From Desulfotomaculum sp. (GTDB taxonomy: Bacteria > Bacillota > Desulfotomaculia > Desulfotomaculales > Desulfallaceae): DNA of 41,784 nucleotides. The position numbers and the translations under genes are program-made. Under the pieces are notes generated by a model. That model was not told the origin of the DNA and did not search any database. It saw nothing but the letters and a program-made list of their open reading frames with translations. This document shows positions 31,071-35,475 of the stretch, piece by piece. How positions within the stretch are numbered: the stretch's first letter is position 1; every line of letters begins with the position of its first letter. The DNA lies in NCBI GenBank assembly GCA_016841675.1, contig JAENYQ010000018.1, positions 1 through 41,784 on the forward strand, written 5' to 3'.

Positions 31071-31107
31071 TATCGGAAAAAGATTAATCCATATGGAGGA
31101 GATATAT

Positions 31108-31527
31108 TTGATACCCATGGGCAGCAGACAAGTAGCCCGGGCTGCTATAAAAATGGCCATTTCTGAAACCCGGGAACAAGAAAAGGAATTCAAAGCCCTA
31201 TTTTTAAAAGATGGTATCAAGACCGCAGCAGTGGATCACGGCGGAGACTTCATCGCTTCGGTAAACAAAATCACTGAACGGGCTGTGGTGGCAGCTAAAA
31301 GGGAAGGCGTTATACGCGAAGTGCATGCCGATGAGGGAGCGGTGGCCGGTGCCACCAGGGAAGCCCTGACCCAGGTTATGCCCAAGGCACTTGGCCTCAA
31401 TGTGGGAGGCAAGATTGGTATTGCCAGGTACCAGGATCACATCAGTGTTGCTGTATTCTTCGGCGTAGGGCTGCTGCACCTGGATGATGTGGCCATAGGA
31501 ATGGGCCACCGGGCTGTTTCATCCTGA
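31108..31527 (+). CDS. HutP-family protein (RNA-binding antiterminator homologue)
   Basis: 139-aa protein of the HutP family. Bacillus HutP binds UAG-type triplets in the hut leader, with L-histidine and Mg2+, and prevents termination. Length and order of blocks fit: an N-terminal helix (VARAAIKMAISETREQEKEF), GIKTAAVDHGGDFIASVN, the AATREAL-like segment (AGATREALTQVM), and the C-terminal ISVAVFFGVGLLHLDDVAIG. By my memory of the Bacillus sequence, the two histidines that coordinate the metal (His73, His77) are replaced by glycines here while the C-terminal one seems retained. TTG 31108 is chosen because GGAGGA lies 7 nt before; ATG 31117 is the alternative. No hut genes are nearby; aroF is the downstream neighbour. 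Confidence 0.7.
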   Translation: MIPMGSRQVARAAIKMAISETREQEKEFKALFLKDGIKTAAVDHGGDFIASVNKITERAVVAAKREGVIREVHADEGAVAGATREALTQVMPKALGLNVGGKIGIARYQDHISVAVFFGVGLLHLDDVAIGMGHRAVSS

Positions 31528-31592
31528 TTATTTTTAATTCGCTACCAATCAACAGTTTTTAGATTCCAGGCCAATGCAGAGCTCCGAACTTG

Positions 31593-31757
31593 GTGCCAGT
31601 GCTTTGTGCCATAAAAGTGGAGATACCGGGAAGCCTGGGCAGATGTATTAGGGCGCTGATGCTGGCAAACACTAATACAAACCAGCGCGATGTCAAGCAC
31701 GTTTACCTGGGGGAAGCTGTAAGCCTACGTCCAGATCCCGGTAACCCGCCGTACTAA
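31593..31757 (+). CDS. Short ORF with coding-like codon use, 54 aa
   Basis: A frame opening at 31593 (GTG) and ending TAA at 31755 encodes about 54 aa ending HVYLGEAVSLRPDPGNPPY. Codon use (CTG, CGC, GGC, GTG) is like the surrounding genes. No ribosome binding site is visible, and the stop-free frame extends 10 codons further upstream (to a TAG at 31560-31562). It may be a gene remnant. The same DNA holds a perfect 8-bp helix (31624-31631 with 31736-31743) and an 8-bp helix (31644-31651 with 31672-31679), so a structured RNA cannot be excluded. Confidence 0.3.
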   Translation: MPVLCAIKVEIPGSLGRCIRALMLANTNTNQRDVKHVYLGEAVSLRPDPGNPPY

Positions 31758-31818
31758 AAACAGCTGCAGGCTAACCGACCGCAGCCCGAATGAGTTCACT
31801 TTTATATGAGAAGACATA

Positions 31819-31847
31819 TTGCACCAAATTATGAAAGGTGTTATCAT
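31819..31847 (+). promoter_or_regulatory. aroF operon promoter
   Basis: TTGCAC (31819-31824) and TATCAT (31842-31847) with the ideal 17-nt spacer. The predicted start site (about 31854) coincides with the first ACGGTAGAATGGT repeat, so the leader begins with it. Confidence 0.7.
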
Positions 31848-31853
31848 GTCCAT

Positions 31854-31990
31854 ACGGTAGAATGGTTTGTATGGTAATTGGCGGGTGTAGGGTCGACGGT
31901 TATGTCGGCATAATGCAGGACGGTAGAATGGTAGGGGGCGTTGGACTATGTTTACATAATCACTCCCAGGGGGGGTTTTTTGCTTTTTTT
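31854..31990 (+). promoter_or_regulatory. Candidate attenuator leader of aroF with UAG repeats
   Basis: ACGGTAGAATGGT occurs at 31854-31866 and 31920-31932; further UAG triplets at 31888 and 31932. A stable small hairpin TTATG-TCGG-CATAA is at 31900-31913. Then two exclusive pairings appear: GGGGG (31934-31938) plus GGACTATG (31943-31950) with CATAATC and CTCCC (31955-31967), an antiterminator-like hairpin, versus ACTCCC (31962-31967) with GGGGGT (31971-31976) followed by T5-GC-T7, a terminator. All of this is folding by eye. Confidence 0.5.
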
Positions 31991-32052
31991 AGGTATCTAA
32001 TCAGACCGGGAAGCTGTTGAAAATAGGCTAGTAAAGCGGAGGTATGTATACT

Positions 32053-33078
32053 ATGATAGTTGTAATGGCACATAAAGCCAGTAAAATAGCGATCGATCGG
32101 GTGTTGGTAAAATTGGATGAAGCGGGATTTAACATTCACCTCTCCCAAGGCGTTGAAAGAACAATTATAGGTGCCATCGGCGACAAGACCAGGTTGAATG
32201 ATCTGGCTTTGGAAGCCATGCCGGGAGTGGAGAAAGTGGTTCCCATACTTCAACCTTATAAACTGGTCAGTAAGGCATACATGGAAGGCCCCACCGTGGT
32301 TAAGGTCGGAAATGTAGAAATTGGCGGAGATAGTATCCAGGTAATGGCCGGCCCCTGCGCGGTGGAAAGCAGGGAACAGTTGCTGGAAGCGGCGGAAATA
32401 GTCCGTCGGGCCGGCGCTACATTACTCCGGGGTGGCGCGTTCAAACCCCGCACCTCGCCGTACTCTTTTCAGGGGTTGGAGCAAAAAGGACTGGAGCTGT
32501 TGGCTGAAGCCAGAGAGAAAACCGGTCTGCCAATAGTTACCGAGGTGATGGACCCCAGAAATTTGGACATGGTGGCGGAATACGCTGATATGCTGCAAAT
32601 TGGAGCTCGCAATATGCAAAACTTTTTCCTGCTACGGGAAGTGGCCCGGGCCGGCAAACCGGTGCTGTTGAAACGTGGGGCTTCGGCTACCATTGAAGAG
32701 TGGCTTTTAGCGGCTGAATATATCCTGGCCGAGGGTAACCGGGACGTAGTCCTTTGTGAACGAGGCATCAGGACTTTTGAAAACTACACCCGCAACACCC
32801 TGGACCTTACAGCAGTGCCGGTAGTCAAATACCTTAGCCACCTGCCCGTGATTGTAGACCCCAGCCATGCCATTGGCAAATGGCGTTTCGTTGAGCCCAT
32901 GGCCCGGGCTGCTATCGCCTCGGGCGCCGACGGGTTGCTGATTGAGGTGCACCCCCATCCTGAGGAAGCGCTTTGTGACGGACCGCAGTCTCTTACTCCG
33001 GATAATTTCAATAATTTGATGCATAAACTTAAGCATATAGCCGAGGTAATGGACCGTAAAATGGGTAGCTTGCAATGA
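32053..33078 (+). CDS. aroF: 3-deoxy-D-arabino-heptulosonate 7-phosphate synthase
   Basis: 341-aa DAHP synthase of the class with an N-terminal ferredoxin-like (ACT-like) regulatory domain (residues about 1-70), as in Thermotoga; it condenses PEP and erythrose-4-phosphate, the first shikimate step. Barrel motifs: [11 protein letters not shown] (about 100), [26 protein letters not shown] and [13 protein letters not shown] at 32053 is preferred to that at 32044 because GGAGG (32038-32042) is 10 nt away from it and only 1 nt from the other. The stop overlaps tyrA by 4 nt. Preceded by the candidate attenuator. Confidence 0.94.
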
Positions 33079-34169
33079 TCAACCGGTGCGCCATAATCGG
33101 TTTGGGCTTGATTGGCGGTTCACTGGGCCTGGCCCTAAACGAACGTCAGCTGGCCAAGCATATTTACGGAGTGGATACCAACCGGGAAAACCTCGAAATG
33201 GCGCTGTCCGCAGAAGCTGTGCATGAGGCAGTCGATTTAAGAGAAGCCGTAAGTGACGTCGAGCTGGTGATACTGGCCGTCCCGGTGGGAGCCGTCCCCG
33301 GCCTGCTTAGGAATATAAATGGTTGGTTAAAGCCCGGCACCGTGGTGACCGATGTGGGCAGTACCAAGCAAGCCATTGTTGACGAAGCAAAAAGTGTTCT
33401 CAGGCCGGATATCCACTTTGTGGGCGGTCACCCCATGGCTGGTTCAGAGACTTCTGGTGTTGCCGGAGCTGACTCGTATCTGTTTGAAAACGCTTTTTAC
33501 CTGTTAACTCCCACCCCTGATACAAACCATGCCGCTATGGACCTGGTCCGCGGCATGGTGAAAGGCATTGGGGCACTGGTAATGGAAATACCGCCGGATG
33601 AACACGATTTAATCACGGCGGCGATTAGCCACCTGCCGCATTTTGTAGCAGCAGCCCTGGTTAACGCGGTAACCAATATGCCCGTTGGAGACCGGGCCCT
33701 GGCCCTTTCAGCCGGAGGTTTCAGGGATACCACCCGCATTGCTGCGGGCAACCCGCAAATGTGGCGAGATATATTCATCACCAACCGGGACCGGGTACTG
33801 GAATCCCTGTCTTTTTTCCGGGCTGCTGTTGAAGAATTGGAAGAGGCCATACGGGCTGGAAAAGGCGCACAAATTTATCACACTTTGAGCGAAGCCAATC
33901 AAGTACGCCGGGAACTGCCCATCAAACCCAGAGGGTACCTGCCTTACATTTATGAGGTGGTGGTAACCGTCCCGGACCGGCCTGGTATTATTGCCATGCT
34001 GGCCAGTCTTTTGGGGGATGCTGGGATAAATATAACAGAAATTGAGATCCTGCACGCCAGAGAAGGTTACGGCGGCACGATTAGGGTGGGTTTTGCCACC
34101 TCCGACGAACAGAATCGGGCCTGCGATCTGCTGCGAGCCAGAAATATCAAATGCCGACCCAAGGCGTAA
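33075..34169 (+). CDS. tyrA: Prephenate dehydrogenase
   Basis: 364-aa NAD(P)-dependent enzyme for tyrosine synthesis, prephenate to 4-hydroxyphenylpyruvate. Rossmann motif [13 protein letters not shown] (about 9-21), substrate-binding block [12 protein letters not shown] and a helical domain with [11 protein letters not shown], plus a C-terminal ACT domain (about 292-364, [18 protein letters not shown]) probably for tyrosine feedback. Overlaps the aroF stop (ATGA), so translation is coupled. Confidence 0.93.
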
Positions 34170-34188: not shown

Positions 34189-35475
34189 TTGGAAGTAACT
34201 ATTCTACCGGCCAAGGAACTGCGCGGCCAAGTACGGGTGCCGGGTGACAAGTCAATCTCTCACCGGGCTGTAATACTGGGTGCTCTGGCCTGCGGTGAAA
34301 CAGAAATAGATAATTTCCTGTTTGGTGGTGATTGTCTGTCTACCATCGGGATCATCCGCGCCCTGGGCGTGCAAGTAGTCACTGAAGAAAACCGGGTGGT
34401 TGTACGTAGCGCTGGTATGGATGGGCTGCTGGAGCCTGAAAACATACTAGATGCCGGCAATTCCGGCACCACCACGCGCCTGATGGCCGGAGTGCTGTCG
34501 GGCTGTCCATTTTTCTCCGTGCTCACCGGGGACAATTCGCTGCGCCAACGGCCCATGGGCCGGGTCATTAAACCGCTCACGACAATGGGGGCCCGGATTA
34601 CAGCCCGCAAAGGCAATTCCCTTGCCCCCCTGGCTATCCAGGGCGGCAAGCTGCGGGCTATAGATTACTACTCGCCAGTGGCCAGCGCCCAGGTTAAATC
34701 GGCGGTTATGCTGGCTGGTTTGCTTACCGCAGGGGTAACCACAGTAATTGAACCGGCCCGTTCCAGGGATCATACTGAACGCATGCTTGAATATTTCGGT
34801 GCGCGGGTGGAAGTTGACGGCCAACGGGTGTCCATCTGGGGCAGACCTAATCTGATTGGCAAAAGCATCAGTATTCCCGGCGATATCTCCTCGGCTATGT
34901 TTTTTATCGCCGCCGGTATAACCGTGCCCGGGGCTGAGCTAGAGATACTAAATGTAGGCATTAACCCTACCCGTACCGGCGCACTGGAAATACTAAAGGA
35001 TATGGGCGCCGATATAGTACTACAAAATGTGAGGGAAGTTAACGGTGAACCGGTGGCCGATCTAAAAGTGCACGGCAGCCCACTTAACGGCACGGATATC
35101 GGCGGAGAGATTATCCCCAAGCTAATCGACGAGCTTCCGGTGCTGGCGGTGGTGGCCGCACTAGCCAACGGCGAAACCGTGGTCCGTGACGCTGCCGAAC
35201 TGCGTCACAAGGAATCGGATCGGATCACCGCAGTGGTACGTTTACTTGGCGGTTTGGGAGCCCAGGTCAGTGAAAGGCCCGACGGTTTTGTGGTGCGGGG
35301 AGGCCGACAGCTCATCGGAGCGCCCTGCGACAGTTTCGGTGACCACCGAATGGCTATGGCCGCCGCCGTCGCCGGGTTATCGGCCCGGGGAGCAACCACT
35401 ATTAAAGATGCGGAGTGCATTGATATATCATTTCCCTACTTTATTAATACATTAAATGGCATAATTGTGAAATAA
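34189..35475 (+). CDS. aroA: 3-phosphoshikimate 1-carboxyvinyltransferase (EPSP synthase)
   Basis: 428-aa EPSP synthase, two-domain inverse alpha/beta barrel, joining shikimate-3-phosphate and PEP. PEP/substrate-binding motifs: VPGDKSISHRA (Lys21), DAGNSGTTTRL, SAQVKSAVMLAG, ELPVLAVVAA and GDHRMAMA near the end. Start is TTG at 34189 with AGGAG 9 nt upstream. Gene follows tyrA by 19 nt. With cmk downstream, the order resembles other Firmicutes (aroA-cmk-plsC-ispH). Confidence 0.95.
   Translation: MEVTILPAKELRGQVRVPGDKSISHRAVILGALACGETEIDNFLFGGDCLSTIGIIRALGVQVVTEENRVVVRSAGMDGLLEPENILDAGNSGTTTRLMAGVLSGCPFFSVLTGDNSLRQRPMGRVIKPLTTMGARITARKGNSLAPLAIQGGKLRAIDYYSPVASAQVKSAVMLAGLLTAGVTTVIEPARSRDHTERMLEYFGARVEVDGQRVSIWGRPNLIGKSISIPGDISSAMFFIAAGITVPGAELEILNVGINPTRTGALEILKDMGADIVLQNVREVNGEPVADLKVHGSPLNGTDIGGEIIPKLIDELPVLAVVAALANGETVVRDAAELRHKESDRITAVVRLLGGLGAQVSERPDGFVVRGGRQLIGAPCDSFGDHRMAMAAAVAGLSARGATTIKDAECIDISFPYFINTLNGIIVK

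Follow-up and report, generated by a model that had tools for sequence, protein, structure and literature searches.

Ahead of aroF, in a 41,784-nucleotide stretch of a Desulfotomaculum sp. genome (contig JAENYQ010000018.1; the window), lies what appears to be a conserved RNA switch, probably read by a relative of HutP. So far, HutP has been known as a histidine-dependent antiterminator of one operon, hut. The comparisons described here point to a widespread, undescribed system of aromatic amino acid control in Clostridia-like bacteria. An initial annotation of the window had suggested a HutP-like attenuation of aromatic amino acid synthesis at this leader; the link to HutP and the conservation, which extends over many genera, bear this out, but the predicted targets form a regulon (aroF, aroH, a symporter-PaaK-IorA set, and transporters) and not a single leader. 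From its sequence features, we consider the leader quite likely to be a protein-read attenuator, in which a putative HutP-type reader would recognize an array of NAG triplets and turn expression off when an aromatic end product is plentiful. The features of the locus are the following.

31108 to 31527, + strand: hutP homologue (PF09021), the proposed reader of the leader
31572 to 31751, + strand: aroH remnant, 5'-truncated (AroH-type chorismate mutase), between hutP and the leader
31819 to 31847, + strand: promoter of the sigma-70 type, TTGCAC-17-TATCAT, from sequence
31856 to 31865, + strand: first (upstream) unit GGTAGAATGG, with UAG at 31858 to 31860, near the RNA 5' end
31916 to 31934, + strand: three-triplet array, CAG 31916 to 31918, UAG 31924 to 31926, UAG 31932 to 31934, period 8
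31934 to 31967, + strand: candidate antiterminator, GGGGG 31934 to 31938 with CTCCC 31963 to 31967, and inner TATG 31947 to 31950 with CATA 31955 to 31958
31948 to 31959, + strand: mini-ORF ATG TTT ACA TAA (M-F-T)
31962 to 31981, + strand: predicted intrinsic terminator, ACTCCC-AGG-GGGGGT plus a T-run, hairpin (31962 to 31976) of -7.1 kcal/mol
32053 to 33078, + strand: aroF (DAHP synthase; Pfam/NCBIfam), the first gene predicted to be regulated
33075 to 34169 and then 34189 to 35475, + strand: tyrA and aroA, downstream of aroF (Pfam/NCBIfam)

The leader is about 200 nt long (199 nt were analysed) and runs from the GGTAGAATGG unit through a variable stretch to the array (CAG-5-UAG-5-UAG), GGGGG, the mini-ORF, the terminator, and aroF with its own Shine-Dalgarno sequence (SD). 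The promoter reported in the initial annotation is present, with TTGCAC at 31819 to 31824 and, 17 nt on, TATCAT at 31842 to 31847; relatives have TTGCAC or TTGCGC with a similar -10 element at the equivalent position (by eye). Also present are the two reported copies of ACGGTAGAATGGT, at 31854 and 31920, and two more UAG triplets at 31888 and 31932, so that UAG occurs at 31858, 31888, 31924, and 31932 ahead of the terminator. No further copy of ACGGTAGAATGGT occurs on either strand of the window, and the longest exact direct repeat in the leader, of 13 nt, is equalled in only 1 of 1000 doublet shuffles. The GGGGG that runs on directly from the last UAG of the array doubles as an SD-like sequence for the mini-ORF, and the last of the three triplets extends into the stretch complementary to the terminator's 5' arm. 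Since antiterminator and terminator both use CTCCC, they are mutually exclusive, as had been proposed. At gathering score, Rfam matched nothing in the window, and at E<=5 nothing in 31500 to 32100; searched over 20 loci, it gave two matches, neither at an array.

The gene upstream of the leader scores 170.3 bits against the Pfam HutP model (cut-off 25), and it is the only HutP gene found in its genome; its TTG start was chosen from the SD at 31095 to 31099. Its family is thus as first annotated, but it does not lie immediately upstream, since the aroH remnant intervenes (tblastn, 73% identity over residues 62-121 of 125, E 5e-29). At the place of the remnant, eight of the nine relatives inspected have an aroH ORF of 119-125 codons, and the ninth (L035) has none. 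A candidate 6S-like RNA at 31605 to 31810, a region that contains the aroH remnant, was rejected (fold z -0.23, no Rfam match). We place the start of aroF at 32053, not 32044, because of the SD at 32036 to 32042 and the comparison with relatives.

What is conserved in the leader is an element of three NAG triplets with an 8-nt period, (NAGNAYGG)2NAG. The initial annotation had taken UAG triplets as the signal; a triplet signal stands in the form of this period-8 array, but bare UAG shows no enrichment ahead of it (131 versus 122.5 in shuffles), and counting it was dropped. Array statistics were taken over 98 distinct sites picked by the pattern AGNAYGGNAGNAYGGNAG, leaving out the tandem-repeat locus L212. 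At these sites any letter may precede AG (T 127, C 88, A 50, G 29), runs comprise exactly three units at 81 of the 98, and AG in a fourth phase is found at 8/98 upstream and 10/98 downstream, against a background of 6.5%; because the pattern itself fixes three AGs, these counts show where arrays stop and do not establish three triplets for all targets. Further NAGNAYGG units are common upstream of the array (44 versus 3.4 in shuffles), with at least one in 38 of 47 aroF leaders, and in some leaders only, by eye, three triplets are found there. Three leaders (L045, L046, and L047) carry an extra NAG-5-UAG pair between terminator and aroF, perhaps an additional binding site. A long tandem run of the NAGNAYGG unit at L212 1501-1760 is probably a simple repeat; its genome (G134, 6.8 Mb) has no HutP match and carries 24 overlapping matches to the pattern. 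The array could in principle be a DNA operator for a transcription factor, as the first unit sits at the transcription start. But among 74 aroF and symporter genes with upstream DNA, the array was found in the sense orientation in 58 and in the antisense orientation in 0; it has no dyad, adjoins the antiterminator, and overlaps the SDs of genes inside putative operons, which makes an operator extremely improbable.

The plan of the leader is kept before aroF in the nine relatives inspected first, and the variable stretch diverges; this conservation across genera places the leader beyond chance. A sequence-only model of the leader core, built on 14 sequences, has a match at E <= 0.1 in 73 of the 113 class genomes. 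By eye, 29 of 35 inspected model matches precede a DAHP synthase start, some of them unlinked to hutP by contig or distance; the remaining six lie at a DctP gene (L101), tyrA (L116), a LivJ-type gene (L117), inside coding sequence (L119 and L125), and at a contig end (L113). The leader is found upstream of aroF in many families. Array presence tracks the HutP-family gene: in the class, exact arrays occur in 62 of 79 HutP-containing genomes and in 3 of the 34 that lack HutP, and in a sample of 398 genomes drawn over the phylum, in 114 of 247 with HutP and 19 of 151 without (odds ratio 5.95, P 7e-13). The reversed pattern, used as a control in the phylum sample, gives 31/247 versus 11/151 (P 0.07). 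Shared ancestry inflates the class and phylum figures, and the comparison within families of mixed HutP state is fairer and modest (21/46 versus 3/23, stratified permutation P 0.03).

The correspondence has exceptions on both sides. Five genomes, namely G028, G029 (100% complete), G162 (99%, in 2 contigs), G230 (80%), and G398 (91%), have arrays without a detected HutP, judged by the A2 profile in all five and also by the Pfam model in G028 and G029; aroH was not found in these five genomes either. Their arrays lie at aroF (G029, G230, and G162), at a symporter and a transporter (G028), and at an AMP-ligase gene (G398), and may reflect recent loss of hutP-aroH, an assembly gap, or another reader. 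The phylum sample has 19 genomes that carry arrays but no HutP; of the 7 inspected, three (G162, G230, and G398) had arrays at aro-type or AMP-ligase sites, three (G328, G374, and G416) had coding matches, and G134 had the tandem repeat. Conversely, 133 of the 247 genomes with HutP in that sample lack an exact array; in these, HutP may rely on less strict sites or act on different targets.

Among 104 classifiable array sites, 46 were scored before aroF and 8 more were placed there by inspection (one of them, L113, by its leader alone). The next most frequent target is a sodium:solute symporter gene (16 of 104, 11 of them scored on its SD, directly before the start codon), followed by PaaK, AMP-ligase, and DctP genes (3 each), lactate-permease-type and GHMP-type genes (2 each), and single sites at a LivJ-type gene, at tyrA, and on the SD of aroH; three sites lie inside coding sequence. 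The 20 sites first classed as other intergenic comprise the nine of tandem repeat L212, seven aroF leaders that the script had missed (L008, L045, L047, L087, L095, L133, and L227), the aroF-like leader of L113 at a contig end with no visible gene, a frame-disturbed symporter (L167), a GHMP-type gene (L224), and a coding match (L211). Three sites classed as other SDs include an aroF homologue (L244) and a lactate-permease-type gene (L253), besides L213. Pfam confirms the kinds of target (SSF, lactate permease, AMP-binding, DctP, Peripla_BP_6, chorismate mutase, and DAHP synthase). Two or three period-8 triplets are found just upstream of aroH in L054 and L060.

In three loci (L249, L250, and L251), a class I/II aminotransferase gene is followed by a symporter with the array on its SD, a PaaK-type ligase, and an IorA-type gene, each kind with Pfam or NCBIfam support; the best NCBIfam names, phenylacetate-CoA ligase and indolepyruvate ferredoxin oxidoreductase alpha, are both below full-length cut-offs, and the IorA-type match is cut by the locus end. 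In L252 the genes come in the same order, and the array lies 74 nt ahead of the symporter start codon. Formation of aromatic amino acids from arylacetates is a pathway that fits this symporter-PaaK-IorA set. An Rfam match to TwoAYGGAY RNA (49.3 bits, gathering 43) lies between the PaaK-type and iorA-type genes at L250 4501-4565, inside a long hairpin region and unrelated to the array. In L246, the order is hutP-aroH-trpE...trpA-[array, terminator]-aroF, where hutP, aroH, trpE, trpA, and aroF were tested and the remaining genes assigned by eye. A second array in the window's own genome precedes a set of DctP-DctM transporter genes. Within the family there are five extra pattern matches, two in coding sequence (L149 and L151), one shortly before an ORF (L143), and two before DctP (L155 and L156). 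The last two, L156 1498-1515 (own genome, G000:C146:60242-60259) and L155, are array leaders with a terminator-like hairpin before a DctP-type gene in two species of the genus; DctM comes next in the own genome, and the substrate may be an aromatic acid.

In 16 leaders of the family, 95.7% of cells pair in the antiterminator proposed in the initial annotation, against 51-72% when it is slid by 1-3 columns; all cells pair in its outer helix, and the inner AUG:CAU, whose AUG is also the start codon of the mini-ORF, is invariant. An alternative inner helix, with 75% of cells, fits less well and was rejected. The terminator pairs in 92.6% of cells in 16 relatives, and a terminator was called in 49 of 50 aroF leaders (none in L136), wrongly in L084, which was left out of the arm-pairing test because an upstream hairpin had been mistaken for its terminator. 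Across many families (n=48), the third-triplet segment pairs with the terminator arm at a mean of -10.9 versus -7.8 kcal/mol for shuffled arms; complementarity within a leader's own pair is no better than in permuted pairs (368/5000; non-redundant, 2258/20000). The annotation had also called for a covariation check, and covariation could not be demonstrated here: no pair in the 16 family leaders has changes on both sides. The whole-leader fold is no more stable than shuffles (z -0.44).

The mini-ORF is itself conserved in the class. An ATG at +10 to +16 followed by a stop within 12 codons is found in 33 of 39 aroF leaders of the class (mean 2.5 and maximum 8 in shuffles), and this position after the array suggests that the switch may work in part by keeping the ribosome off the mini-ORF. 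One could suppose that attenuation is mediated by the mini-ORF ribosome alone, that the array serves only in structure or to extend the ribosome-binding site, and that HutP is a chance neighbour, an explanation consistent with the retained start and stop and with the arrays that persist in the five genomes without HutP. Its short ORF ahead of a terminator recalls the leader-peptide attenuators of the pheA and trp operons of enterobacteria, but the leader differs from these in that its ORF has few codons, aromatic codons are not significantly enriched, and the array precedes it. An excess of aromatic codons seemed striking by eye and by a binomial test and was given up against composition shuffles, in which 215 of 1000 gave at least the 31 aromatic residues among 132 that are observed. 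Moreover, the start codon in the family also belongs to the invariant inner helix, a clear mini-ORF is missing (by eye) from many of the leaders found outside the class, and the array recurs at the SDs of other genes and tracks HutP. Ribosome-mediated attenuation by itself is therefore quite unlikely.

The mechanism that we prefer is one of binding and occlusion. At high levels of an aromatic end product, a HutP-type oligomer would place the three triplets on one face and could take the upstream NAGNAYGG unit on the other. The bound protein would cover the GGGGG/SD segment, so that neither an antiterminator could form nor a ribosome load on the mini-ORF, and without the antiterminator, the terminator would halt transcription ahead of aroF. 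At aroH and the symporter genes, binding would block translation, and when the signal falls, HutP would leave the RNA and the genes would be expressed. The predicted sign of the switch rests on position, since protein on the array would be expected to cover the antiterminator arm or an SD. The initial annotation had HutP proteins act by preventing termination, as B. subtilis HutP does at hut (PMC7430163), and a homologue reading the array as an on switch would have that known action in its favor. Such a switch is unlikely in this leader, as the array lies upstream of the terminator, with its third triplet abutting the antiterminator arm; the triplets at symporter genes and aroH fall on the SD or start region, so that bound protein would be expected to prevent initiation; and end-product on control makes little sense for a biosynthetic operon. 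A block of antitermination or translation is most likely instead. Extended to the other targets, we lean towards the view that the HutP-type protein is a general RNA-acting aromatic amino acid repressor in Clostridia-like bacteria, TRAP-like and derived from another fold, which would read exactly three NAG triplets at an 8-nt period, sense an aromatic ligand, and act by termination (at aroF and transporter genes) and by ribosome block (at aroH and symporter-PaaK-IorA).

The protein belongs to the HutP family and has its fold, and is too distant in sequence from the solved HutP structures to be recognized directly. Its AlphaFold model (pLDDT 82) retrieves from the PDB 11 matches at E<=1e-3, and all 11 are HutP, including the hut mRNA complex 1wmq; the best is 1vea_B (E 3.4e-9, TM 0.76), and identity in these structural matches is about 20%. 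PDB HutP sequences were not reached from the homologue by phmmer or by its own profile. The homologue is 67-94% identical in the 78 other genomes of the class with HutP, and homologues occur in 247 of the 398 genomes of the phylum sample, some via weak matches. The L-histidine/Mg2+ site of B. subtilis HutP comprises His73, His77, and His138. A weak profile alignment (probability 2.8%) places His73 and His77 opposite invariant glycines, which suggests that two metal-binding histidines have been replaced in the homologue.

The hut sites have a period of 7, and the leader described here a period of 8. The two systems are alike in Pfam family, in fold, in clusters of three NAG repeats, which B. 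subtilis HutP is reported to bind (PMC7430163), and in control at an intrinsic terminator; they differ in that aromatic genes stand in place of hut, in the unit NAGNAYGG, and in the predicted promotion of termination and block of SDs. Control of histidine utilisation genes was not seen among neighbours and targets, which are aromatic pathway and transporter genes. The system is probably TRAP-like in its working and HutP by family and fold, differing from hut HutP in genes, spacing, and probable sign. TRAP (MtrB), as described in PMC7430163, resembles the leader system in that triplets overlap an antiterminator arm, binding leads to a terminator, and translation is controlled elsewhere; it is another protein family and uses 11 triplets at 2-3 nt, where the leader has three at 5 nt.

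TRAP could nevertheless be the reader of this leader, since a TRAP gene coexists with the leader system in 13 of 16 genomes of the family, including the window's own (G000), and TRAP recognizes (G/U)AG triplets. This is very improbable, given the 11 closely spaced triplets that TRAP needs according to PMC7430163; moreover, one fully complete genome (G014, 100%) keeps the leader and has no TRAP match, and TRAP-like GAG-rich tracts are found separately, before trpE-like ORFs (by eye) in L056 and L058. Such tracts, with a period of about 5 nt and followed by terminators, lie after 6420 in L056, before 6826 in L055, and after 6408 in L058, downstream of hutP or hutP-aroH, and the two triplet-reading systems seem to exist side by side.

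We favor the HutP-type reader, and among the matches listed in the literature searched, which left most subscription papers outside, none concerned HutP in aromatic control; the only paper among them with both HutP and 'aromatic amino acid' concerns plant oil. If our reading is correct, many HutP relatives govern aromatic amino acid synthesis and the uptake of aromatic acids, which would supply a function for a large, highly conserved family. Triplet-counting RNA regulation would then have evolved a second time, independently of TRAP, and members of one RNA-binding family would be predicted to act with opposite sign. T-box leaders likewise control amino acid genes through a terminator and an antiterminator; the leader described here is set apart from them by having neither a T-box nor any other Rfam match. 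Elsewhere in the own genome, a sub-threshold T-box match (77.3 bits, gathering 93) lies beside transporter genes, at L248 5959-6210 on the - strand.
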